Positions 41,906-53,931 of a stretch of DNA of 64,000 nt are shown here, one piece after another. The notes below the pieces were generated by a model. It was not told the DNA's origin, made no database searches, and was given only the letters and a program-made list of their open reading frames with translations. The translations under genes and the position numbers were made by a program. Source of the stretch: an uncultured Flavobacteriaceae bacterium (GTDB lineage Bacteria > Bacteroidota > Bacteroidia > Flavobacteriales > Flavobacteriaceae); assembly GCA_913065125.1 (NCBI GenBank), contig CAJYAG010000002.1:744001-808000 (forward strand), given 5' to 3'. Position 1 is the stretch's first letter, and each line of letters begins with the position of its first letter.

Positions 41906-44900
41906 TTAAAAATCTGCTCGTAACTGAATTGATCCGTTGTGTATAGTGGTCGAATTTTCTCCTTTCCTGCCTAAATAATTAAAGTTTAAATTGATAAAAG
42001 AATTTATTTTTTGCTGATACATCAAAGACCATGTGTAATTTCTGCCAGCTAGTAAACCTTCTAACATTTGATACGCAACTGGGCTATTTTGATTTCCCAT
42101 AAAATTATTGTGAAACAAATTGATTTCTACTCTAATCAATGCATCTTTTGTTGATTTGTAATAATAAGAACTTCCTAATTTTTGTTGTTGTAAAGTTTCT
42201 AAACTACCAACGTTGTTTTCTTTGTTCTTATAATTGTAAAAGAAAGAAAATTGATGATTTTTATTATATTCAAAAGTAAATTTTGGAGCGATTTCATAAG
42301 CGTCGATTCTGTAATTTTGATTGGTAAAGTTTTCAGTAATAATCTCGTCTTTTGATGTGTTTGTTTTTAAATCAAAAAGCCAAAAAGCAGCTAATTTATG
42401 CGCAAACTCTAATTGATGCAATTTGGTGTTGTTTTCTTGATTACCAATGTTGTATAAATGTTTGTTTTTAGAAGTTGCGTAGGTAAAAATAAGGCTATAT
42501 TTCTGTAGATTTTTGTTTAAATACAAACTGTTTCTAAAACTAAAATTCAATCCTAATAATTTTGATTCATCCAAATCAAACGGATTCAAATTAAAAGAAT
42601 TATCAGTTCTTTTTTGTTCGTTATCAACCACAAAATTGGTTTGATTGTAAAAGTGAGAAAGTACTTTTTTAACGCCGCTTTTAGTTGCCCATTGAGATGG
42701 ATTAATCGTAAAAACTTGTTGCCATTTTGCACGTTGTGTATTTATAAAAGTGATGTTTGGTAAGGCAACGCGCAAATATGCTGCTTGGTCTTTATAAATA
42801 GCAATTTCAAACTCGTTAAATTCTTTAATTCCGTTGTTGTTATAATCAATCCACGTATAATATCCTTGTCCAGGCTCGGTTTTAATATAGACATATTCTT
42901 GTTGCGGAATATTGCCCGAAGAGGTTTCGTAAACAGTATTAAAATTGATAAAATTACGAAAGAGTTTTTGGCTATAAACTATTTTAGAGTTCAACGCCTT
43001 TTCATCAGCTGTAAAAGTGTTTTTTGTACTTCTGTAATTTGCAAAGATCGATAAATTACTAGAGGTGTTTTGTAGAATTCTACTATTGATATAATAGGTT
43101 TTTCGTGAATTTACTTCTGTAAAAGCATTGTTTCTAATACTGTCATTTTGCCTAAAATTAAAACCAATTTTGGTGAACACTTTAGTAGAATCTCCTAAAC
43201 CAATAAAGGTTTCGTATTCTTTAAATTGATGACTTAATGCACTTTTCTGTTGCGTTGATTTAGATTCGATTTTATTGGTTTCTACATTGATAAAACCACC
43301 AAGCCAAGAATTCGAAAATGAATGTTCTATTTTCCCTTTAGCTCTTAAAAATTTATTTTTTTCTAAAGTAGATGAACTGTTTAATAAACTAACAAACGAA
43401 CTAAATTTTGTGTTTTTTATGTTTGTTTGGCTGTTAAAAACGTGTTTAATTCCGTTGTAATTATCGGAATAATTTATTAGGTTAAAACCATAGATATATT
43501 TAGAATTTTGTGTGTTGTCTAAAATAAGTTGTGTGCTAATTTGATTTCTATTTCCTAACGGATTTACAATATTCCAATCGCGTAAAAATTCAACAGCATC
43601 AAAACGTTGTTCGGTCGCAAAATTTTGTTGTACATATTCGAAACCTATATCCGTTGAAAACCTCCATTTTTTATCCACAAAGAGTTGTTGCCATTTTAGT
43701 TTTGCAGCCAACCCTTTGTTTTCAGAATCATCGATTGTAGAAAATAAATTGGCATCAGTATTGCTCAAAGCAATTTCTCCAAAGAAACTTGTTTTCTTAG
43801 TCAGATTTAACGTTGTATTTACAACTGCAACTTGCGATTTTGAAGGAGCAGCTAGTCTGATAATTGGTTGATAATTCCCTAAATTGATTCCAACATATTT
43901 GTAAATATTTCCAATTGCGATGGTTTTATCTAACGTGTAATCTCCTTTATTTGCGCCAACAAACGTAAAAGTAACATTGTATAATTGATCTGTTGCATTT
44001 GTTGAATATTCAAAGTTTTCTGTAACTCCGTTTGTTGCTTTTCTGTACAAAATTCTGTTTTCAGAATACACATCTTCGTAAGCACTATTTGCAAACATTT
44101 TAGATTCATCATTACCAGCATTTGCTAAAATCTGCTTTTGTGAATCCGATAAATTTTGCTGTATTGGCTGATTTTTTGCATCATTTTCGTTATAGAAAAT
44201 TCCGTTGATGGTAAATTTTTCTCCAACATATTTTGCTTTTTCATAAGTAACAAAACGCGTGTAATTTCTGTTAGAATACTGATAATCTAAATGAAAACGA
44301 ATGTCATTTGTAACCGGAAAAGTAGTGTTAAAACGTATTTCGGAATTGTTATAATCGATGGTGTAATCTTTGTTTTCTCCTCTGTTTAACAAAACGCCGT
44401 TTGCATACAAAGCATCGCTTCCGGCAACGATTATAATAAACGCTTCGTTGTTTGGACCAATAATTTTATACGGACCTTGATTTCCTTCTTTACCAAGAAA
44501 TTTAAAACTGGTAAACTTTCCTCTTACAACTGCTCCAGAAGCAAGTACATTTAGATTGTCATTTAGTTTTGCCTCCACTTCTAAACCGGCAACTTTTTTA
44601 GAAAAAGGCATAAAGTAACTGTCTGAATTTGTTAAATCTAAATCTCCTGCTTTTACACGCCAATTTTTGTGTTCAAACTCAATAAAAATACGATCAAAAT
44701 CAGTGATATTTTGAGAATATCCGTTGTCTTGTAACGGAATATTAGTGTCAAAAATATTGGCTTTTATGGTAACATCTTTTGATAAATTTCCTTTAATTGT
44801 TAAGTCTAAAGAGGAGTTTACAACCGAGTTTTGATTGTTGCCAATTGTTAAACCACGTGTAATGTTTCCAGAAGTTTCTAAATTATTAAAAAGCTCTTTT

Positions 44901-45283
44901 CTTTGTTGATTTTTATTGGTTGTTAAACTGTATAATTGTTGTGTATTGTTGGTATTTGGAACAATTATGTTGTCATTATATTTTTGATAGGTTTTGGTGA
45001 TAAAATCAGGAAATCTAAAATATTCAACCCTTATAAAAGGATGTTTTTTTGAATTGATTATCAGTTGTGCTTTTATAAAATCTACTTGATATTCTGAAGT
45101 CGGAATTACCGTTTTATTTTGAGAAAAAACTTTAAATAATTGCGAATTGATACTCACAGAATCTATTTGAACCGTGTCTTTTACCAACGTAAAATCCTTT
45201 GATCTAAAATCTGAAGAACCAGTTTGTGCATAGATTGAAAAACCTATACAAACAAAAATGATAAAAATGATTTTTTTAATCAT
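41906..45283 (-). CDS. Giant SprA_N-like outer-membrane protein
   Basis: An 1125-residue exported protein from the ATG at 45283; a TTG nine bases earlier is less likely. Signal peptide (1-20, ending YAQ). Residues about 138-237 (NITRGLTIGNNQNSVVNSSL ... KVKAGDLDL-type stretch ... SYFMPFSKKVAG) resemble the SprA_N repeat of the T9SS translocon SprA, though SprA itself is about 2400 residues. The remainder is strand-rich with frequent Asn/Tyr and ends in QLRADF, like an outer-membrane barrel. Function unknown; a role in gliding/secretion or as a barrel is inference. Confidence 0.65.
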   Translation of the reverse strand: MIKKIIFIIFVCIGFSIYAQTGSSDFRSKDFTLVKDTVQIDSVSINSQLFKVFSQNKTVIPTSEYQVDFIKAQLIINSKKHPFIRVEYFRFPDFITKTYQKYNDNIIVPNTNNTQQLYSLTTNKNQQRKELFNNLETSGNITRGLTIGNNQNSVVNSSLDLTIKGNLSKDVTIKANIFDTNIPLQDNGYSQNITDFDRIFIEFEHKNWRVKAGDLDLTNSDSYFMPFSKKVAGLEVEAKLNDNLNVLASGAVVRGKFTSFKFLGKEGNQGPYKIIGPNNEAFIIIVAGSDALYANGVLLNRGENKDYTIDYNNSEIRFNTTFPVTNDIRFHLDYQYSNRNYTRFVTYEKAKYVGEKFTINGIFYNENDAKNQPIQQNLSDSQKQILANAGNDESKMFANSAYEDVYSENRILYRKATNGVTENFEYSTNATDQLYNVTFTFVGANKGDYTLDKTIAIGNIYKYVGINLGNYQPIIRLAAPSKSQVAVVNTTLNLTKKTSFFGEIALSNTDANLFSTIDDSENKGLAAKLKWQQLFVDKKWRFSTDIGFEYVQQNFATEQRFDAVEFLRDWNIVNPLGNRNQISTQLILDNTQNSKYIYGFNLINYSDNYNGIKHVFNSQTNIKNTKFSSFVSLLNSSSTLEKNKFLRAKGKIEHSFSNSWLGGFINVETNKIESKSTQQKSALSHQFKEYETFIGLGDSTKVFTKIGFNFRQNDSIRNNAFTEVNSRKTYYINSRILQNTSSNLSIFANYRSTKNTFTADEKALNSKIVYSQKLFRNFINFNTVYETSSGNIPQQEYVYIKTEPGQGYYTWIDYNNNGIKEFNEFEIAIYKDQAAYLRVALPNITFINTQRAKWQQVFTINPSQWATKSGVKKVLSHFYNQTNFVVDNEQKRTDNSFNLNPFDLDESKLLGLNFSFRNSLYLNKNLQKYSLIFTYATSKNKHLYNIGNQENNTKLHQLEFAHKLAAFWLFDLKTNTSKDEIITENFTNQNYRIDAYEIAPKFTFEYNKNHQFSFFYNYKNKENNVGSLETLQQQKLGSSYYYKSTKDALIRVEINLFHNNFMGNQNSPVAYQMLEGLLAGRNYTWSLMYQQKINSFINLNFNYLGRKGENSTTIHNGSIQLRADF

Positions 45284-45314
45284 GTAATACAAACGTTCTA
45301 ATTGTAAAAATAGT

Positions 45315-46551: not shown

Positions 46552-46562
46552 TTTTTAGTGTT

Positions 46563-46604
46563 CAGTTATCAGTTATCAATTATCAGTTATCAGTTATCAA
46601 TGTT
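46563..46604. repeat. Tandem heptamer repeat, CAGTTAT
   Basis: Six 7-base units with only point changes: CAGTTAT, CAGTTAT, CAATTAT, CAGTTAT, CAGTTAT, CAATGTT. It lies upstream of tatD and the retropepsin gene in their 126-base divergent gap. A later TGATAATTG can pair with it. Slippage or a binding-site array are possible. Confidence 0.7.
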
Positions 46605-46677
46605 CAATTAAACTGTTTATTGATAATTGTTCATTGTAAATTGAATTGTATTTTAGCAAAAACAAAAGTACTGTTAA

Positions 46678-47175
46678 ATGCCAAGTCTTAAAAAAGTATT
46701 GCAAAAAAAGAAATATATAAAAATCAAGTTGATAAGAATTGCTACAAATCACTTGGAGTTAAAAGCAAAGATAAACGGAGTTAAAGGGCGATTTATCTTA
46801 GATACGGGCGCATCAAACTCTTGTGTTGGAGTAGATTTGATAGACTATTTTAAGTTACATGCAGAAGCATCTGAAACAAAAGCAGCCGGTGCAGGAGCAA
46901 CCGATATGGAAACTCAAAAATCTACCGATAATACCTTACAAATTGGAAAATGGAAAACCAATGAAAGTCATTTAGTACTGTTTGATATGACACATGTAAA
47001 TACCGCTTTAACGCAGCATCACGCAAAAGAAGTTCATGGAATTATTGGTGCAGATATTTTAGAAATGGGCAAGGCAATTATTGATTATAAAACCTTGGAT
47101 TTATATTTAAAAAAAGATCCTATTTTTAAAAATAAAAAAGTGTTTACAGAAGATCAAACAGCACTTCCGTTTTAA
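46678..47175 (+). CDS. Retropepsin-like aspartic protease
   Basis: A 165-residue single-domain aspartic protease of the retropepsin-like clan. Active site D42 in ILDTGASNS; the flap-side VHGIIGADIL and the end YLKKDPIF fit. Such bacterial proteases dimerise. No signal peptide; a basic N-terminus (KKVLQKKKYIKIK). Target unknown. It is the only plus-strand gene of this accessory region and is convergent with the T9SS unit. Confidence 0.82.
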   Translation: MPSLKKVLQKKKYIKIKLIRIATNHLELKAKINGVKGRFILDTGASNSCVGVDLIDYFKLHAEASETKAAGAGATDMETQKSTDNTLQIGKWKTNESHLVLFDMTHVNTALTQHHAKEVHGIIGADILEMGKAIIDYKTLDLYLKKDPIFKNKKVFTEDQTALPF

Positions 47176-47182
47176 AATAAAA

Positions 47183-47210
47183 AAAGGCTCACAAAAATTG
47201 GCGAGCCTTT
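47183..47210. terminator. Bidirectional terminator between retropepsin gene and T9SS unit
   Basis: AAAGGCTC (47183-47190) pairs with GAGCCTTT (47203-47210). On the minus strand the stem is followed by a T8 and a further T run, a good end for the T9SS adhesin/54-aa unit. Confidence 0.75.
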
Positions 47211-47265: not shown

Positions 47266-47430
47266 TTAAAAACCACTTGGGGCTTCTGGGCTTCTTGCTT
47301 GAGCAGTTTTAGGATTTAATAGCATATAAGTTCCTATAGCGGTTAATGCGGCATATTTTCCGTAGTTACCAATTTTTTGAATAGCTTCTTTGCGAGTAAT
47401 GTTTTCTGATTGTTGTTTTTTATTTTCCAT
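47266..47430 (-). CDS. 54-aa peptide translationally coupled to the T9SS adhesin
   Basis: A 54-residue gene starting at ATG 47430-47428; the adhesin stop codon and this ATG share one base (TAATG). The peptide begins MENKKQQSEN, then ITRKEAIQKIGNYGKYAA, a hydrophobic stretch LTAIGTYMLL (29-38), and NPKTAQARSPEAPSGF. The layout, a basic T-R-K motif, hydrophobic stretch, then A-x-A-like AQA, resembles a Tat signal peptide with RK in place of RR. I recall comparable short flavobacterial peptides (SRKEAL...KYAAL...), often near secreted giants. Function unknown; a mature product of only about 10 residues would remain after cleavage. Confidence 0.7.
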   Translation of the reverse strand: MENKKQQSENITRKEAIQKIGNYGKYAALTAIGTYMLLNPKTAQARSPEAPSGF

Positions 47431-50400
47431 TATTCTAAAATTATTTTTTTAGTAATATTTCCTTTGTTAGATGCTATTTTTACAATATAAATTCCTGCTT
47501 TTAAAGTGTTAGGAACTTGCAAAGTAGCATTGCGAGTAGTTTTGTTTAACAGCTCTTTGCCTAAAATTGAAATTACTTTTACAGTTGCTTTTTGGTTGCT
47601 TAATCCTGTAATAGTTAATGTTCTTTTGTTAGATAAATAAACGTTAAGATTATTTTGGTGTAGCTTTTCTACAGATAATACTTGTGTAGTAATATGTATA
47701 GAAAAACGTTCAGCGGTATTTAAATCTTCTGATACTGTTATTTTGTAAGAAGCATTTTCTTCATCTAATTGATGAAACGTTTTTAAGACGTTGTCTTCTA
47801 AAAACACATGATAGTTATTTGGAATATTTTCTTTCGTTAATGTAAAGGTTATTTCCTTGCCTGCTTTTGCTTTAATTCCAATTGGGATAACCATGTTTTC
47901 ATAATTATCTTTTGGTAAAGATTGAATGGTGAAATTCGTTTTGTTTTTACCATCAACCAAACGAGTAAAAATATCTAAACCATCGCTATTAAAGTTTCCA
48001 ATATCATAACCTTTGTCAAAATCGGCTGTTGCATTGTCAAAGTATTTGATAGCAGTATTTACAGTGTGATTTCCATCACTTAACAATACTTTTATAGCAG
48101 GTGTTGCATTTTTTGTTTTTTCAAAAAGGTTATTTCCTGCGGCTGGTTTTGTACTTCTTTTTTCTTGGTTAAAAGTAATTTCTGTTTGTCCGTTTTTAAG
48201 TTTTACAAAGAAACCTTGTCCCGGAGTTAGAGAACGGCTGGCGTCATCAACCTCAGAAACAACTACATATTTATTTTGAGCATTATCCCACACGTAGATA
48301 CTTTGATACGTGTCATCTAAAGCAGTTAAATTGTCATTTAAAAAACTATTTGAACCGTTTTTATTTGCGGGGAAATACGTTGTAAACGGATTTCCAATTG
48401 CATTCCATTGGTTGGTTGTAACAGTTTTAGTTGTTGTGTCGGTAGTTAAAGTTCCAGTAAATGATATTTCACCATCTGTAGCTCTAGAAATGGCATAACT
48501 TTTACCTACTTCAAACTCTAAGTTTTCATCCATGTCGGCAAAATAATACACCCATTTTTGCCCACTAGGTTGTGAATCGTCATAATAACTTATTGCGTAT
48601 TTGTTTGGCGTAATATCGGTTCTTTTTCTAATGTTATTTGCAACGTTTTCTGCAAACTCTTTTATTTTTTGCCCTGCAACTGGCGGGGTAACAATGCTCC
48701 ATTTATTGGCCAATAAACCACCACGTTTGTAAGTAACAGTTCCTGTACTTGTGCCTTCTACTAATAAAACACCGCTATTTGTTTTGTCAGATGACAACTC
48801 TAAAGTTCCACTGCTATTAAAAGAGTTTTGTATGGTAATTTCTTTGTCTTTCGGAATGCTTAGTACGGCTGTGTTTTCTAAGGTGAAATCATCAATTTTT
48901 AAATCATCAACATCAATGGTAACTGTTTTTCCTGAGTTAATAGTAACTTTATCAACTTGTGTTGGTACTACGCCTAGTCCCCAATTACTTGGAGTTGACC
49001 AATTTCCTGTAGTGGTAAATGTATTGGTTGCTTTTGTTCCGTTTTTAAAAGTACTGATTACTCCTGCTACAAAATTAGAAGTTGCTCCTGTTTTTGCAAA
49101 ATTGTTTAAAGTTCCATTTAGATTATTAGAACTGCTATCAGTAAGTAAAGAAATAGATGAATTATCACCTTCTGCAATTCCTTGATTCATTTTATAATAA
49201 ACTGCTAAACCATTTGCATTAGCAGGAACACTTTTATCTTTTTGATTGTTGATTTCAGTTTCCGTTAAAACACGCGTCCAAATTCTAACTTCATCTATAC
49301 TACCATTAAAAAAGTAAGCATTATTTCTAGCTCCAATTTCTATAGGCGCTGTACTTGCAAACATTGTTCCTGCAACAGCTTTTGTTCCAGCTGCAACCCC
49401 ATTTATATAGGCTTTCATAGTTGTGCCGTCAAAAGTAAGTGTTATGTGAGACCATTCTCCAGCTGCAATTGTAGTTGTAGATTCAAAATATTGATCTGTA
49501 GCTCCATCAGTTGCTACTGTAAACTCTATTCTACCAGAAGCTAATAAGATAAATGCAAACGCTTTTTGATTTGTATCATATTGACTTAAATAGGTTTGAG
49601 TACTTAATTCATCTGGGTTTATCCAGGCTTCTGCTGTAAAACCAGCAGAAAAATCAAAAGCAGGATTATCTGTGATGACAACTCTATCATCAGTGCCATC
49701 AAAATTTAAGGCATTGTTTAATCTAAAGCTTTTAACATCTCCGTATGCTGTACCTTGTGTATTGGTTGCATATGCTCTATAATAATAAATGGTATTTGCA
49801 GTTAAACCTGTAATGTTTTTTGAGAAAACTCCTGTTCCAGTTCCATTTGTATCTTTGGTAACATCTGTATCTCCAATTTTTGGATTGGTATCTGTAGTAG
49901 AATATAAAATACCTCTTTCTGTAACTGCACTTTCTCCTTGATGCGTAATAGTACCTACTAATGTTGCAGAAGTGCTTGTTACATTAGTTGCGTTGGTAGT
50001 TTCTACAACCGGTAAAGTTGGAGGTGTTAATTTTATATATTTTTCATTTGTAGTTGGAGCAGTAGTAGAAAGTGTTATATCTCCTATAAAACTAACAATT
50101 TCTTCTTCAATTTTAATTTTTAAATCAAAGTTTAAATGAGAAGAATTGTTCATTCCTGTAAAAATAGCATGTCCATTTGCATATTCATCAGATTGATTAG
50201 CATTTAAAGCATAGCTGCCTGAACCACTAAAGTTAGTTAACACCACACTATACGTGTTGCCTTGTGTTACATTTACTGTTGATGATACTATAAATTCTTG
50301 ACCACTAGCAACTGTACTGTTTGTGATGTTTATAGATTCTGAATGTATTTCTGTTCCTCCATTGGTTTCATCTCCACTATAAATTTTTAAATCTGCTGTA

Positions 50401-51533
50401 CCAGAAAACGTATGCTCTCCATTATTTGGGTAAAAAGTCACTTTTTTTAGTAAACCATCTACACCAGCCGTATAAGTTTGTCCAATTTTAGCTTGGTTTA
50501 ACCAATCATCACTAGCAGTTTGGTTTACTGTAATGTTTGGAGTGCTTATAGCTAGTGAAGTAATATTATTGATACCAGCAACACCGTTAACGCCTTTTAT
50601 TTGAAGAAACACATCTCCTGTGGTAGTAATATTATTTACTGTTACTTCATACACTGTAGTTGATACTTGGTTTACATTACTAATGGTGGCGCCAGCAGCA
50701 TTTGTTGTAAAATCTGAAACAGTTACATCTTTAACAGGCTTGCTAAAAGTAACTTTATAGGTTACCGTATTTTCGTAGGTGTTTTCTAAAGAAGGATTTT
50801 CTCTTTCTATAGAAGTAACAGAAACTCCTAAAGTTGTAAAACTTTTAATTTCTCCATAACTAGTGCCAGAGCTATTAATTGCATAAGCTCTGTAATAATA
50901 GGTTGTTTCTTCGGTTAAACTACTTATGGTTTCAGAAAAAACACCTGTTCCTGTTCCATTAGTGTCTTTTATAACTCCAGATTCTCCTATTTCTGGAGTA
51001 CTGTCTGTAGAAGAATATATTACACCCCTTTCTGTAACTGCATTTCCATTATCAGAAGTTATATTACCACCTATGACAGTAGAAGTTTTGGTTATTGCTG
51101 TTGCAGTTGAAGTTGAAATATCGGGTGCAAATTTTAAACCACTTACAGAAAAGCTCCATGAGCCAGTTGCAGTTCCAGTATGAAGTCGGACAATATAATA
51201 CTTATTAGGATTTAATGTTACTGTTACTTGCCCTGGGTTTAATGCTCTAGTTAGATAAGTAGATCCATAATTAGAATCATCTTCATAAATATAAAGTCCG
51301 TTTCCTGTTACTGGTGCTGAAATCCAATCAAAAGTAACGTTTCCTACAGCATGACTTTTAATTTTAAAAAATTCTACATCGTATGTATTAAAAGAACCAT
51401 TAAATGTACCGTCTTCAGTTATGGTAATAACACCAGAAGCATCAATATCATTATTAGGTTCTGTTTCAGAAATTTGTGAAAAAGAGTAGCTTATCGTGTA
51501 AAATAGTATAACAAAGAGTATTGTTTTTTTCAT
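47430..51533 (-). CDS. Giant T9SS-secreted adhesin-like protein with LamG and FN3-like domains
   Basis: A 1367-residue cell-surface protein. Signal peptide (1-19); PPC-like beta domain (about 20-135); an FN3-like repeat (about 136-233) and a near-copy (about 505-605), both with KDTNGTGTGVFS and YYYRAYA motifs; an intervening Ig-like segment and a lectin-like segment (WLNQAKIGQTY...); a LamG-type domain (about 607-800: FDGTDDRVVITDNPAFDFS ... DEVRIWTRVLTETEI); a G8-like beta-helix segment (about 830-935); and a type A T9SS C-terminal sorting domain (about 1285-1367: NVYLSNKRTLTITG ... TITKKIILE-type end). It is exported by the T9SS and held on or shed from the surface. Confidence 0.85.
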   Translation of the reverse strand: MKKTILFVILFYTISYSFSQISETEPNNDIDASGVITITEDGTFNGSFNTYDVEFFKIKSHAVGNVTFDWISAPVTGNGLYIYEDDSNYGSTYLTRALNPGQVTVTLNPNKYYIVRLHTGTATGSWSFSVSGLKFAPDISTSTATAITKTSTVIGGNITSDNGNAVTERGVIYSSTDSTPEIGESGVIKDTNGTGTGVFSETISSLTEETTYYYRAYAINSSGTSYGEIKSFTTLGVSVTSIERENPSLENTYENTVTYKVTFSKPVKDVTVSDFTTNAAGATISNVNQVSTTVYEVTVNNITTTGDVFLQIKGVNGVAGINNITSLAISTPNITVNQTASDDWLNQAKIGQTYTAGVDGLLKKVTFYPNNGEHTFSGTADLKIYSGDETNGGTEIHSESINITNSTVASGQEFIVSSTVNVTQGNTYSVVLTNFSGSGSYALNANQSDEYANGHAIFTGMNNSSHLNFDLKIKIEEEIVSFIGDITLSTTAPTTNEKYIKLTPPTLPVVETTNATNVTSTSATLVGTITHQGESAVTERGILYSTTDTNPKIGDTDVTKDTNGTGTGVFSKNITGLTANTIYYYRAYATNTQGTAYGDVKSFRLNNALNFDGTDDRVVITDNPAFDFSAGFTAEAWINPDELSTQTYLSQYDTNQKAFAFILLASGRIEFTVATDGATDQYFESTTTIAAGEWSHITLTFDGTTMKAYINGVAAGTKAVAGTMFASTAPIEIGARNNAYFFNGSIDEVRIWTRVLTETEINNQKDKSVPANANGLAVYYKMNQGIAEGDNSSISLLTDSSSNNLNGTLNNFAKTGATSNFVAGVISTFKNGTKATNTFTTTGNWSTPSNWGLGVVPTQVDKVTINSGKTVTIDVDDLKIDDFTLENTAVLSIPKDKEITIQNSFNSSGTLELSSDKTNSGVLLVEGTSTGTVTYKRGGLLANKWSIVTPPVAGQKIKEFAENVANNIRKRTDITPNKYAISYYDDSQPSGQKWVYYFADMDENLEFEVGKSYAISRATDGEISFTGTLTTDTTTKTVTTNQWNAIGNPFTTYFPANKNGSNSFLNDNLTALDDTYQSIYVWDNAQNKYVVVSEVDDASRSLTPGQGFFVKLKNGQTEITFNQEKRSTKPAAGNNLFEKTKNATPAIKVLLSDGNHTVNTAIKYFDNATADFDKGYDIGNFNSDGLDIFTRLVDGKNKTNFTIQSLPKDNYENMVIPIGIKAKAGKEITFTLTKENIPNNYHVFLEDNVLKTFHQLDEENASYKITVSEDLNTAERFSIHITTQVLSVEKLHQNNLNVYLSNKRTLTITGLSNQKATVKVISILGKELLNKTTRNATLQVPNTLKAGIYIVKIASNKGNITKKIILE

Positions 51534-51545
51534 AATGTAGGATTT

Positions 51546-51806
51546 TTATAACTTTTTTATTTTTTGTTTAATTTTTTTATGAGTATGCCAAAGACTAAAA
51601 ATGGTGTAGCCTAAGTAAATTACATACCCAGAAATTAGTGCTATTATGTACGTGTATTTTTCGTTAAAAAATAAGAATGCAACAGCCAATAGAACAACAC
51701 TTATTAGTGATGAAAAAAAGATTAACCACTTGGTAGTTTGTTTAATTTTTCCTTTGTTTTCTTGTAAAGAATAATACAGTGATTTTTTATGTATGTGTGC
51801 ATGCAT
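51546..51806 (-). CDS. Two-helix membrane protein upstream of the T9SS adhesin
   Basis: An 86-residue protein with a His/Lys-rich N-terminus (MHAHIHKKSLYYSLQENKGK), two hydrophobic helices (about 26-47 and 52-72) and a Lys-rich tail (HKKIKQKIKKL). No family recognised. It lies 12 bases before the adhesin gene and is the first gene of the three-gene unit. Upstream, 183 bases to the peptidase gene contain no ORF and no clear TAnnTTTG on the minus strand. Confidence 0.6.
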   Translation of the reverse strand: MHAHIHKKSLYYSLQENKGKIKQTTKWLIFFSSLISVVLLAVAFLFFNEKYTYIIALISGYVIYLGYTIFSLWHTHKKIKQKIKKL

Positions 51807-51989
51807 CTTGTGATATTTTGATGCAATTTTAAATAAGAATTCTGTTTTTTATCTCATCCTTTTGGGTAGTTTTTTAGTTTTAGCGCCCTTATTTTACTGA
51901 CTTTTGTTAAAAACAGTCTTTGAAGCTATCTAAAAAATCAATATTTTTAGATGTGAAGTAAAAATAGATTGTATACTTTAAATAAAAGG

Positions 51990-52844
51990 TTATTCGGTGT
52001 GTGGTAAGTAGCCAATTAATGCTATATCAGGAGATTCTAATAATTGCCTTGGAGTTACAATTGTTTCTTTTATTGGAGGCCAATTTTCAGAAATAGAAGA
52101 CATATTTGTAATAAAGTTTTTGTGTAATTCGTCTAAAGAGAAATTAGGTAGTTGTAATTCATTATTTTTAAAGACTTCAAATACATTTACTGCCAATTCA
52201 TACCCTGCATTTTTGTACATCATGGCAACTAAAGGACTGCAAGCAACCATATTTCTTTGATTCAGATTGTTAAATTCATTTATATGATATAAAATTTGTT
52301 CAACAATGTAATTGGCTTGATCATTTCCAAAAGAATCTGCTATCAATTTATGTAATGTACCTTTTGTATATCGCAAAGAGCAAATAGCAGCTAATAACCA
52401 AGCAGTTTCAAAAGAATAATAACCTTTTATTTTATAAAAATTTCTGATAGATTGATTAATTTCTTGATGAAAATTAACAGGCCTATTTTTTAATCTGCAT
52501 ACATACACATTCATAACAGCTTCGTGCGCTAAAGTGTCATTTAATGTAGCGATTCCGATTCCGTTTCCTCCCGCTTGTACTACACAATCTTGAAAAGAAA
52601 AAGGCACATCTTTATTGTGAAGATGTATGTCTACATTTCCCCATATACCAGCATGATAAATATTCCGATAATTTTTACCTTCTTTCCCTGGATCAAACCA
52701 CGCAATTAAATAATGTAATAAATAATAGAAAGCATCTTTTTTACCATTTCCACATTTTTCTAGAAAAGTTAAAGGATTGAAATTAAAATCTTCAAAAATT
52801 AAGATATCACCAATTTGTAAATCTGATTCTTTTAATTTTTTCAT
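51990..52844 (-). CDS. Permuted papain-like (YiiX/C92-type) peptidase-fold protein
   Basis: A 284-residue cytoplasmic protein, tentatively a permuted NlpC/P60-fold enzyme. It begins with a DLQIGDILIFEDFNF block; a catalytic-His-like site is H64 in NIYHAGIWGN, and a nucleophile-like Cys is C202 in MVACSPLVAMMYKNAG, the order His before Cys seen in circularly permuted papain-like folds. No signal peptide. It follows the 7TM-LuxR gene by 13 bases. Family members act on lipids or peptides; substrate unknown. Confidence 0.6.
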   Translation of the reverse strand: MKKLKESDLQIGDILIFEDFNFNPLTFLEKCGNGKKDAFYYLLHYLIAWFDPGKEGKNYRNIYHAGIWGNVDIHLHNKDVPFSFQDCVVQAGGNGIGIATLNDTLAHEAVMNVYVCRLKNRPVNFHQEINQSIRNFYKIKGYYSFETAWLLAAICSLRYTKGTLHKLIADSFGNDQANYIVEQILYHINEFNNLNQRNMVACSPLVAMMYKNAGYELAVNVFEVFKNNELQLPNFSLDELHKNFITNMSSISENWPPIKETIVTPRQLLESPDIALIGYLPHTE

Positions 52845-52857
52845 TAGTTGTATTTGG

Positions 52858-53931
52858 TTATTTGTCGAATAAGATTTTTGAGGTAATTTCTGTGCGTTTT
52901 TTTACATCTAATTTTTCATAGACATTACGGGTGTGATATTTTACCGTATTGATAGAAATAAATAACTTGTCAGCAATTTGTTGATTGTTTAAACCTAAAC
53001 TAATTTGTAATAAAATATCGGTTTCCCTTTCTGTTAACTGATGCTTTTCGGCGAGTTTTTCAATTTTATTTTCTGGAGAATCTGCGTCATTATTATTTGT
53101 AGATTTTATTTTCTGTTCAAGGTTAAGCACTTGAGAAATATATGTTTTTAATTGTGTTCTAATTTTAAAATTTTCTTTTTGTAAATTTTTAATACGGTCT
53201 GCTAATGCAAATGATAATAAGACAATTTCAAGCGCTCCTCCAAGTTCTAAAGAAGACATTACGAATGCATTTCCTGGTAACCAACCAGCACCATGTAGTA
53301 CTCTTATAATTAAACCTAATACATAAGGAATCCAGGCGATTAAATAAAACATGGCTGGTCTAAACCCTTTTCTAAAAGCAACGATTCCAACAAAAATATA
53401 AGAAGGAAATGAAAGTAATACCAACCATCTTCCAAACGGCGTAATTTGTTCTATTGTTAGAAATAAACTTAAAACAGTTAATAATAAACTTAGGTAAGCA
53501 ATACCCCACATTAATTTATCTAATAATTTATGGTGTTCTTTTAATTGTAAAAATTCGGAAGTAAATCTACTAGAACAGAACATGCTTAAACCAGCAAATG
53601 TAACGTAGATAATTTCATCTAATTCGGGCCGGTTAGGCCAAAAAAACTGTCCACTAATATTGTTGGTTGCTAATGTTGTTAATATGTTAAAGATTACCGT
53701 ACCAACATACAATAGATATGCTTTGTCTTTTAAAGAGAAATAGAGCAATAAATTATAAATTGCCATTACTAACATAAAGCCAAAGAAGATTCCTAAAAGG
53801 AAACTCCGAGAATCTGTTACGACCCAGACTTTGTCTAAAACATCTATATCTTGAGGTGATATAATTTTTAAACTTAAATATTCAAAAGAAAAAACTATTA
53901 AGTTTAAAGTGTAAGATATAAATGAATGCAT
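52858..53931 (-). CDS. 7TM-DISM membrane protein fused to a LuxR-type DNA-binding domain
   Basis: A 357-residue membrane-bound regulator. Seven membrane helices span about 42-248 (7TMR-DISM type: SRSFLLGIFFGFMLVMAIYN ... ADRIKNLQKENF). A coiled segment (about 250-290) leads to a LuxR/GerE helix-turn-helix at 298-355 (LTERETDILLQISLGLNNQQIADKLFI...). The family normally has an exported ~170-residue sensor domain (DISMED2) before TM1; here only 41 residues precede it and an in-frame stop blocks a longer start. It is upstream of, and likely co-transcribed with, the permuted peptidase gene. Ligand and targets unknown. Confidence 0.82.
   Translation of the reverse strand: MHSFISYTLNLIVFSFEYLSLKIISPQDIDVLDKVWVVTDSRSFLLGIFFGFMLVMAIYNLLLYFSLKDKAYLLYVGTVIFNILTTLATNNISGQFFWPNRPELDEIIYVTFAGLSMFCSSRFTSEFLQLKEHHKLLDKLMWGIAYLSLLLTVLSLFLTIEQITPFGRWLVLLSFPSYIFVGIVAFRKGFRPAMFYLIAWIPYVLGLIIRVLHGAGWLPGNAFVMSSLELGGALEIVLLSFALADRIKNLQKENFKIRTQLKTYISQVLNLEQKIKSTNNNDADSPENKIEKLAEKHQLTERETDILLQISLGLNNQQIADKLFISINTVKYHTRNVYEKLDVKKRTEITSKILFDK

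Follow-up and report, generated by a model that had tools for sequence, protein, structure and literature searches.

A conserved peptide gene family behind T9SS adhesins in Flavobacteriaceae, with a kinase and nucleotidyltransferase as its probable modifying enzymes

Introduction

What is the role of a 54-codon open reading frame (ORF) that begins on the last base of the stop codon of a giant adhesin gene? The question is raised by a locus in the 64,000-nucleotide stretch of DNA analysed here (the window), which comes from an uncultured Flavobacteriaceae bacterium. The gene encodes a leader-like sequence with hardly anything behind it, and the answer proposed below draws on two fields, namely the enzymatic tailoring of ribosomally made peptides and the attachment of proteins secreted by the T9SS.

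The nearest known chemistry is that of the phosphorylated and phosphoglycosylated lasso peptides (paeninodin/PadeK, pseudomycoidin/PsmK-PsmN). According to the accessible parts of the reports, PadeK phosphorylates a serine of its precursor, lasso kinases need a His-Lys-Asp-Asp set, and the addition of hexoses to the phosphate is ascribed to PsmN, which carries a nucleotidyltransferase annotation (PMC9266682, PMC8498205); lasso-type tailoring enzymes are also treated for rumen clusters, as far as the accessible text extends (PMC7533575). For T9SS cargo of P. gingivalis, T. forsythia and P. intermedia, the accessible text describes C-termini that are amide-linked to seryl, glycyl or alanyl sugars (PMC7468200, PMC11969387). 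In the open-licence literature, nothing was found on a T9SS-linked precursor peptide/kinase system or on an RRE-HprK fusion, and the word kinase is absent from the main text of the RRE-Finder paper (PMC7470986). The component parts described here are of known kinds; no description of their assembly was found in that literature.

In the present study we describe the peptide gene, its family, its placement and the enzymes encoded with it, and we weigh the explanations for their association with T9SS adhesins.

Results

A 54-aa peptide gene coupled to an adhesin gene

The peptide gene lies on the reverse strand at 47266..47430, stop codon included. Read from 47430 to 47266, the ORF starts with ATG and encodes a precursor of 54 aa, MENKKQQSENITRKEAIQKIGNYGKYAALTAIGTYMLLNPKTAQARSPEAPSGF. 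It follows the adhesin ORF (51533..47430, reverse strand) with an overlap of one base, the last A of the adhesin TAA being the A of the peptide ATG (TAATG). A preliminary description of the locus had claimed this coupling, a terminator 3' of the ORF, and a signal-peptide layout in which scarcely any mature protein follows, and the sequence bears out all three. A terminator-like hairpin (47183..47210, reverse strand) with a 10-bp stem and a T tail, read from 47210 to 47183 and folding at -14.3 kcal/mol (z -4.5), separates the peptide gene from a convergent gene (46678-47175, forward strand). The latter encodes a retropepsin-like aspartyl protease domain (PF13650, E 4.1e-12), and short direct repeats of the type TTATCAGTTATCAATTATCAG are seen by eye in the spacer before it, at 46560-46610.

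The precursor can be divided into a leader (residues 1-45; 47296..47430, reverse strand), a conserved block ending in A-Q-A as the proposed cleavage point, and a core (residues 46-54, RSPEAPSGF; 47269..47295, reverse strand), in which Ser47, invariant in the family, is the candidate modification site. The window peptide matched nothing in Pfam or NCBIfam, and among 26 family members searched against NCBIfam, three models were each touched by one member (best E 0.035). Since the chance of 53 open codons at the local G+C is ~0.014, ORF length by itself is weak evidence, and the ORF is accepted as real because of its conservation.

The adhesin (47430..51533, reverse strand) is a T9SS type A protein of 1,367 aa. 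It contains a LamG domain in residues 612-762 (49248..49700, reverse strand; PF13385, E 1.3e-34) and, in the about 360 residues before its tail (47664..48749, reverse strand), a C-terminal module common to the peptide-linked adhesins, as seen in alignments of 69 and 35 adhesins and in a structural model. Apart from the tail, this module matched no Pfam family, and a structure search with it returned only generic beta-sandwich proteins besides the T9SS tail. The tail itself (residues 1303-1367; 47433..47627, reverse strand) is a type A sorting domain without PNP that scores 36.7 bits against TIGR04183 (cut-off 23) and shares the fold of solved T9SS CTDs (8gl8_D, 8glk_D, 8qb1). TIGR04183 was matched in 29/29 tails at E up to 0.01.

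A conserved family confined to one bacterial family

The window's genome encodes two further paralogues of the peptide, of 58 and 64 aa, and a profile made from the three was used to search 299 genomes of the taxonomic family. Strong matches were present in 32 of them; two more genomes, G129 and G205, gave marginal matches (E about 0.0076) and were not counted as peptide-bearing. An alignment of 26 members (A2), for which L013, L015, L025, L029 and L031 were missed by the selection pattern and the truncated L032 was left out, yielded a profile that recovered 501 relatives from a named genome collection. The 78 named loci referred to below were kept from the best 80 of these 501 matches and therefore lean to close relatives; their titles name Polaribacter, Tenacibaculum, or a Flavobacteriaceae or Flavobacteriales bacterium. 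In a sample of the phylum, strong matches occurred in 5/395 genomes, all from the window's family. Four further phylum matches (E 0.003-0.009), which sit inside open frames of 291-388 aa, were taken as chance.

Judged from a pN/pS of 0.16 over a 38-codon block (79 sequences, 3,081 pairs), the family is under purifying selection. Its commonest form among close relatives is ITRKEAIKKIGNYGKYAALTALGTYMILNPQKAQAxSPEAPGTGF, followed by the stop. The core serine is invariant in 26/26 members of A2 and 78/78 named loci (104/104), and in 77/78 named loci A-x-A stands strictly before it; an A-x-A site after a hydrophobic stretch is the pattern expected of Sec/signal peptidase I substrates. The C-terminal residue is Phe in 76/78 named loci and Ser in none, the conserved serine being internal. 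The core hardly varies between copies of the peptide, and the leader has a mean modal frequency of 0.91 versus 0.26 for the adhesin signal peptides of the same loci, loci that were chosen by leader patterns. We conclude that the peptide ORF is a real gene, belonging to a conserved peptide family of one bacterial family.

The T-R-K-E motif of the leader had been described as of twin-arginine type with RK in place of RR. The counts speak against a plain twin-arginine reading, the second place of the pair being K or N and never R in 104/104 sequences. TatC is present in the window's genome; a plain Tat signal was rejected as the main reading, with RR in 0/104 sequences (78 named loci and 26 in A2).

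Peptide genes follow one type of T9SS tail

The homologues are not only conserved but placed by rule, so that the check on homologues suggested in the preliminary description did not refute the gene, and coupling to T9SS-sorted genes turned out to be general. In 74/76 named loci with upstream DNA, the profile finds a T9SS tail at the end of the gene immediately 5' of the peptide, as it does in 48/50 of the loci left out of profile building. The two exceptions are L036, where a 193-aa barrel gene stands between the T9SS tail and the peptide, and L035, where the upstream frame looks SusC-like by eye. Gaps between the upstream stop and the first in-frame ATG have a median of 25 nt, and 73/76 are of 60 nt or less, although this ATG is a doubtful start in a few cases (L063, L064); a one-base overlap as in the window recurs in L052 and L102, and also in L063 if the first ATG is used. 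Of 29 more distant loci from the wider family sample, 25 show a same-strand tail match on the 5' side of the peptide. Weak tail matches of 21-25 bits precede the peptides in L017, L020, L012 and L028.

The tails concerned are of one kind. PNP occurs in 0/76 upstream C-termini of the named loci, and the nearest tail lacks it in each of the 25 distant ones. Within the window's genome, PNP is found in 17/21 other tail matches versus 0/3 peptide-linked tails (P 0.017), yet four tails of that genome without PNP (L159, L161, L162, L165) have no peptide, so the absence of PNP does not itself imply one. Elsewhere in this genome, two neighbouring T9SS genes (L148 and L149, G000:C1:820426-824755) are identical in their last 95 residues.

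Tail and peptide can also be compared across whole genomes. In three genomes, 21 tails exceed 54 bits against profile A5 and 20 of these have a peptide directly 3', a test that is partly circular because A5 includes tails from genomes under test, namely the three of the window's genome and, apparently from the genome of G693, L040 and L054. The remaining tail (G693 2506581) heads a row of adhesin, adhesin and peptide. Of the peptides in the three genomes, 20/21 come after a T9SS tail, with one orphan in G693 (L197 2140-2331) that has no T9SS gene before it. The peptide family goes with a single type of T9SS tail rather than with promoters at large.

A kinase and a nucleotidyltransferase accompany the peptide

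No enzyme gene stands beside the window peptide. Two kinase loci are found elsewhere in its genome, where both paralogues precede a 374-379-aa kinase and a 363-369-aa NTP_transf_5 protein; the window copy is a satellite peptide. Operon structure was surveyed in 20 regions from 19 genomes of the family sample, 19 of which hold the kinase. In these other genera, kinase and nucleotidyltransferase are adjacent in 19/19 kinase-bearing regions, and in 17/19 adhesin, peptide, kinase and nucleotidyltransferase form a row on one strand, counting L218 with its enzymes in reverse order and L203 with a split kinase frame. An opposite-strand ORF interrupts the row in L216, and in G123 peptide and kinase lie apart, with a weak tail match (23 bits) before the peptide. 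PF14907 was matched in 13/13 nucleotidyltransferases tested. In L200 a single kinase is preceded by two tandem peptides whose cores greatly exceed the usual length, one being rich in Gly-Lys-Pro repeats.

The only extra gene to recur codes for a barrel-like protein of about 200 aa (263 in L216), which adjoins the nucleotidyltransferase in 9/19 regions (L199, L200, L204-L207, L210, L216, L217), in 8 on the same strand, and is a possible fifth operon member. Of three such proteins scanned against PF13505, two gave weak or sub-threshold matches and the third none; the barrel of L036 scored above the cut-off.

Peptide and kinase also occur together at the level of genomes. The 299 family genomes comprise 28 with both, 4 with the peptide only, 1 with the kinase only and 266 with neither (P 5.5e-34, uncorrected for phylogeny; 2e-32 with G129 and G205 added). 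The four peptide-only genomes are 82-92% complete, G295 among them having stops in its match, and the kinase-only genome is 82% complete. For 40 genomes of the genus, the corresponding counts are 33, 2, 2 and 3 (P 0.009). Besides the four of the family sample, the peptide is found without the kinase in G688 (90% complete) and G690, and the kinase without the peptide in G697, G709 and G048. In the phylum sample, a full-length kinase is present in the same five genomes as the peptide only; the other kinase matches there (E up to 1e-6) begin at profile position 172 or later, so the N-terminal, RRE-like part is absent from them.

Peptide copy number varies widely. Within the genus there are up to 17 matches per genome, with 15 in G680 and 17 in G693, of which 16 are among the matches listed and the L198 copy is counted as the remaining one. 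A single kinase match was found in 32 of the 35 kinase-bearing genomes of the genus and two matches in each of two others; in the last, the kinase is in two pieces. One kinase can face up to 17 peptides. The kinase and nucleotidyltransferase probably modify the peptide.

The kinase is predicted to combine a leader-binding fold with an HprK-like domain

A model of the kinase (AlphaFold2, 28 sequences) reached a mean pLDDT of 91.4. In this model, the N-terminal domain resembles RiPP leader-binding (RRE) domains, in particular lasso B1, at modest E-values: the first ~75 residues match 5v1u_B (E 3.2e-3, probability 1.00, TM 0.67 of target, rmsd 2.7 over 75 columns), and also the lasso B1 proteins 5v1v and 6jx3_B, solved with leaders, and the sactipeptide enzyme 5why, in comparisons by one structural aligner, a second having hardly tested this part. 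The C-terminal part matches HprK/P (1kkl_C; Z 11.9, rmsd 3.2, 131 aligned) and PEPCK. H194, K215, D232 and D233 are invariant in 28/28 kinases. With aligned ranges starting at 188 and 134, they would fall on residues 140, 161, 178 and 179 of L. casei HprK/P, which we take to be its catalytic set.

Sequence profiles gave a sparser picture, with PqqD (PF05402) in 1/28 kinases (E 0.0092) and Hpr_kinase_C in 18/28 at E up to 0.01. Scores against HprK-related kinase A (TIGR04352) were 47.2 and 65.3 bits for the pair of kinases in the window's genome, below the curated cut-off of 200 bits. A sequence search of solved structures returned HprK for the kinase and none for the nucleotidyltransferase.

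Discussion

We lean, with some confidence, towards the explanation that the peptide is a RiPP-like precursor which is modified by the kinase and nucleotidyltransferase, exported, and active at the surface together with its adhesin, the window copy being a satellite. The RRE-like domain of the kinase would grip the conserved leader, and its kinase domain would phosphorylate the invariant core serine (Ser47 here) in the cytoplasm. The nucleotidyltransferase would then put a second group on the phosphate, as PsmN puts hexoses. The peptide would cross the inner membrane on its hydrophobic leader, and a cut after A-x-A would leave a modified peptide of 9-10 residues to work at the surface alongside the adhesin produced from the neighbouring gene. 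The export and processing steps are guesses, because the 20 regions show no recurring gene for a leader peptidase or transporter. The window copy would depend in trans on the kinase loci at other places in the genome.

The parallel with PadeK and PsmK-PsmN, as drawn in the accessible text on these systems, extends to an HprK-like kinase with His-Lys-Asp-Asp and a nucleotidyltransferase partner, to a leader-core precursor with a conserved serine, and to a B1-like leader-binding domain. Unlike in lasso systems, however, the conserved serine is internal instead of C-terminal, kinase and leader-binding domain form one fused protein, the gene partnered encodes a T9SS adhesin, and no lasso protease/cyclase (B2 protease, Asn-synthetase-like) recurs in the 20 regions by gene clustering. 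Because the serine is not C-terminal and no lasso enzyme recurs in the operon, we file the system as RiPP-type tailoring and not as a lasso peptide. RRE-bearing RiPP pathways have a tailoring enzyme with a PqqD-like RRE, a likeness that here is predicted from fold and seen by sequence in a single kinase of 28. On the secretion side, the adhesin tail agrees with T9SS type A cargo and the PorU system by profile and fold, but differs in having no PNP, and the accessible parts of the accounts of that system make no mention of a co-encoded peptide with its own kinase. The outer-membrane barrel-like gene beside the nucleotidyltransferase in 9/19 regions recalls type B cargo with PorP-like barrels (SprB/SprF, PG1035/PorP), whereas the tails here are type A and the barrel is of about 200 aa.

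The alternative that survives best, though we consider it unlikely, is that the peptide stays unmodified and serves the adhesin as a small accessory protein, which its leader exports or inserts into the inner membrane and which assists the passage of the PNP-less tail during secretion, the enzymes acting on something else. Such a protein would account for the close pairing with one kind of T9SS tail and for a leader resembling an export signal with an A-x-A site, and TatC is present. Against it stand the absence of RR in 104 sequences, the co-occurrence of peptide and kinase and their shared operons, the RRE-like domain predicted for the kinase, and a leader far more conserved than the adhesin signal peptides, albeit at loci chosen by leader patterns. 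Nothing was found in favour of a chaperone role, which had been suggested at the outset.

A bolder form of the RiPP-like reading, which we regard as quite improbable, holds that the modified peptide itself anchors its adhesin. Once the leader is gone, the amine at the N-terminus of the peptide would accept the adhesin C-terminus in the PorU sortase step, replacing the amino-acyl sugar of Porphyromonas, the group that the two enzymes build on the serine would link to the cell surface, and a PNP-less tail would set apart the cargo that takes this route. The idea arises by analogy, because seryl, glycyl and alanyl amines accept cargo and the peptide is linked to one kind of tail. If it were true, T9SS bacteria would have a second, ribosomally encoded anchoring chemistry.

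It is likewise quite improbable that the peptide is a secreted RiPP natural product, a signal or bacteriocin, whose precursor genes borrow adhesin promoters for expression. The RRE-like kinase, the lasso-type enzymes and the variable precursor copy number would fit such a product. In many multi-precursor RiPP sets the core varies between copies, but here it is nearly constant; the 20 regions contain no recurring gene for immunity or export, and the link is to a tail type, not to promoters generally. That the ORF is a chance reading frame, or matters as RNA only, has practically no probability left and was rejected, since 53 open codons are not very rare here but protein-level conservation across genera and the low pN/pS already contradict it.

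The adhesin-linked peptide and its enzymes suggest a mode of surface-protein assembly or anchoring not described before. If the RiPP-like reading is true, flavobacterial RiPP-like phosphopeptides would be partners of adhesins and not free natural products, each adhesin having its own peptide and a single enzyme pair serving all of them. The reading would predict a separate branch of T9SS cargo, assign to small genes that no family model covers a role open to testing, and make the surface holding of flavobacterial type A cargo experimentally approachable.

Other genes around the adhesin

Two further stretches of the reverse strand flank the genes described here. At 41906-45292 lies an ORF of 1,128 aa for which Pfam gave nothing at E up to 0.001. 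The region 5' of the adhesin (51546-53931) encodes a protein of 86 aa that has hydrophobic stretches, one of 284 aa whose match to Peptidase_C92 is sub-threshold, and a 7TMR-DISM protein that carries a LuxR-type HTH and might regulate the adhesin.
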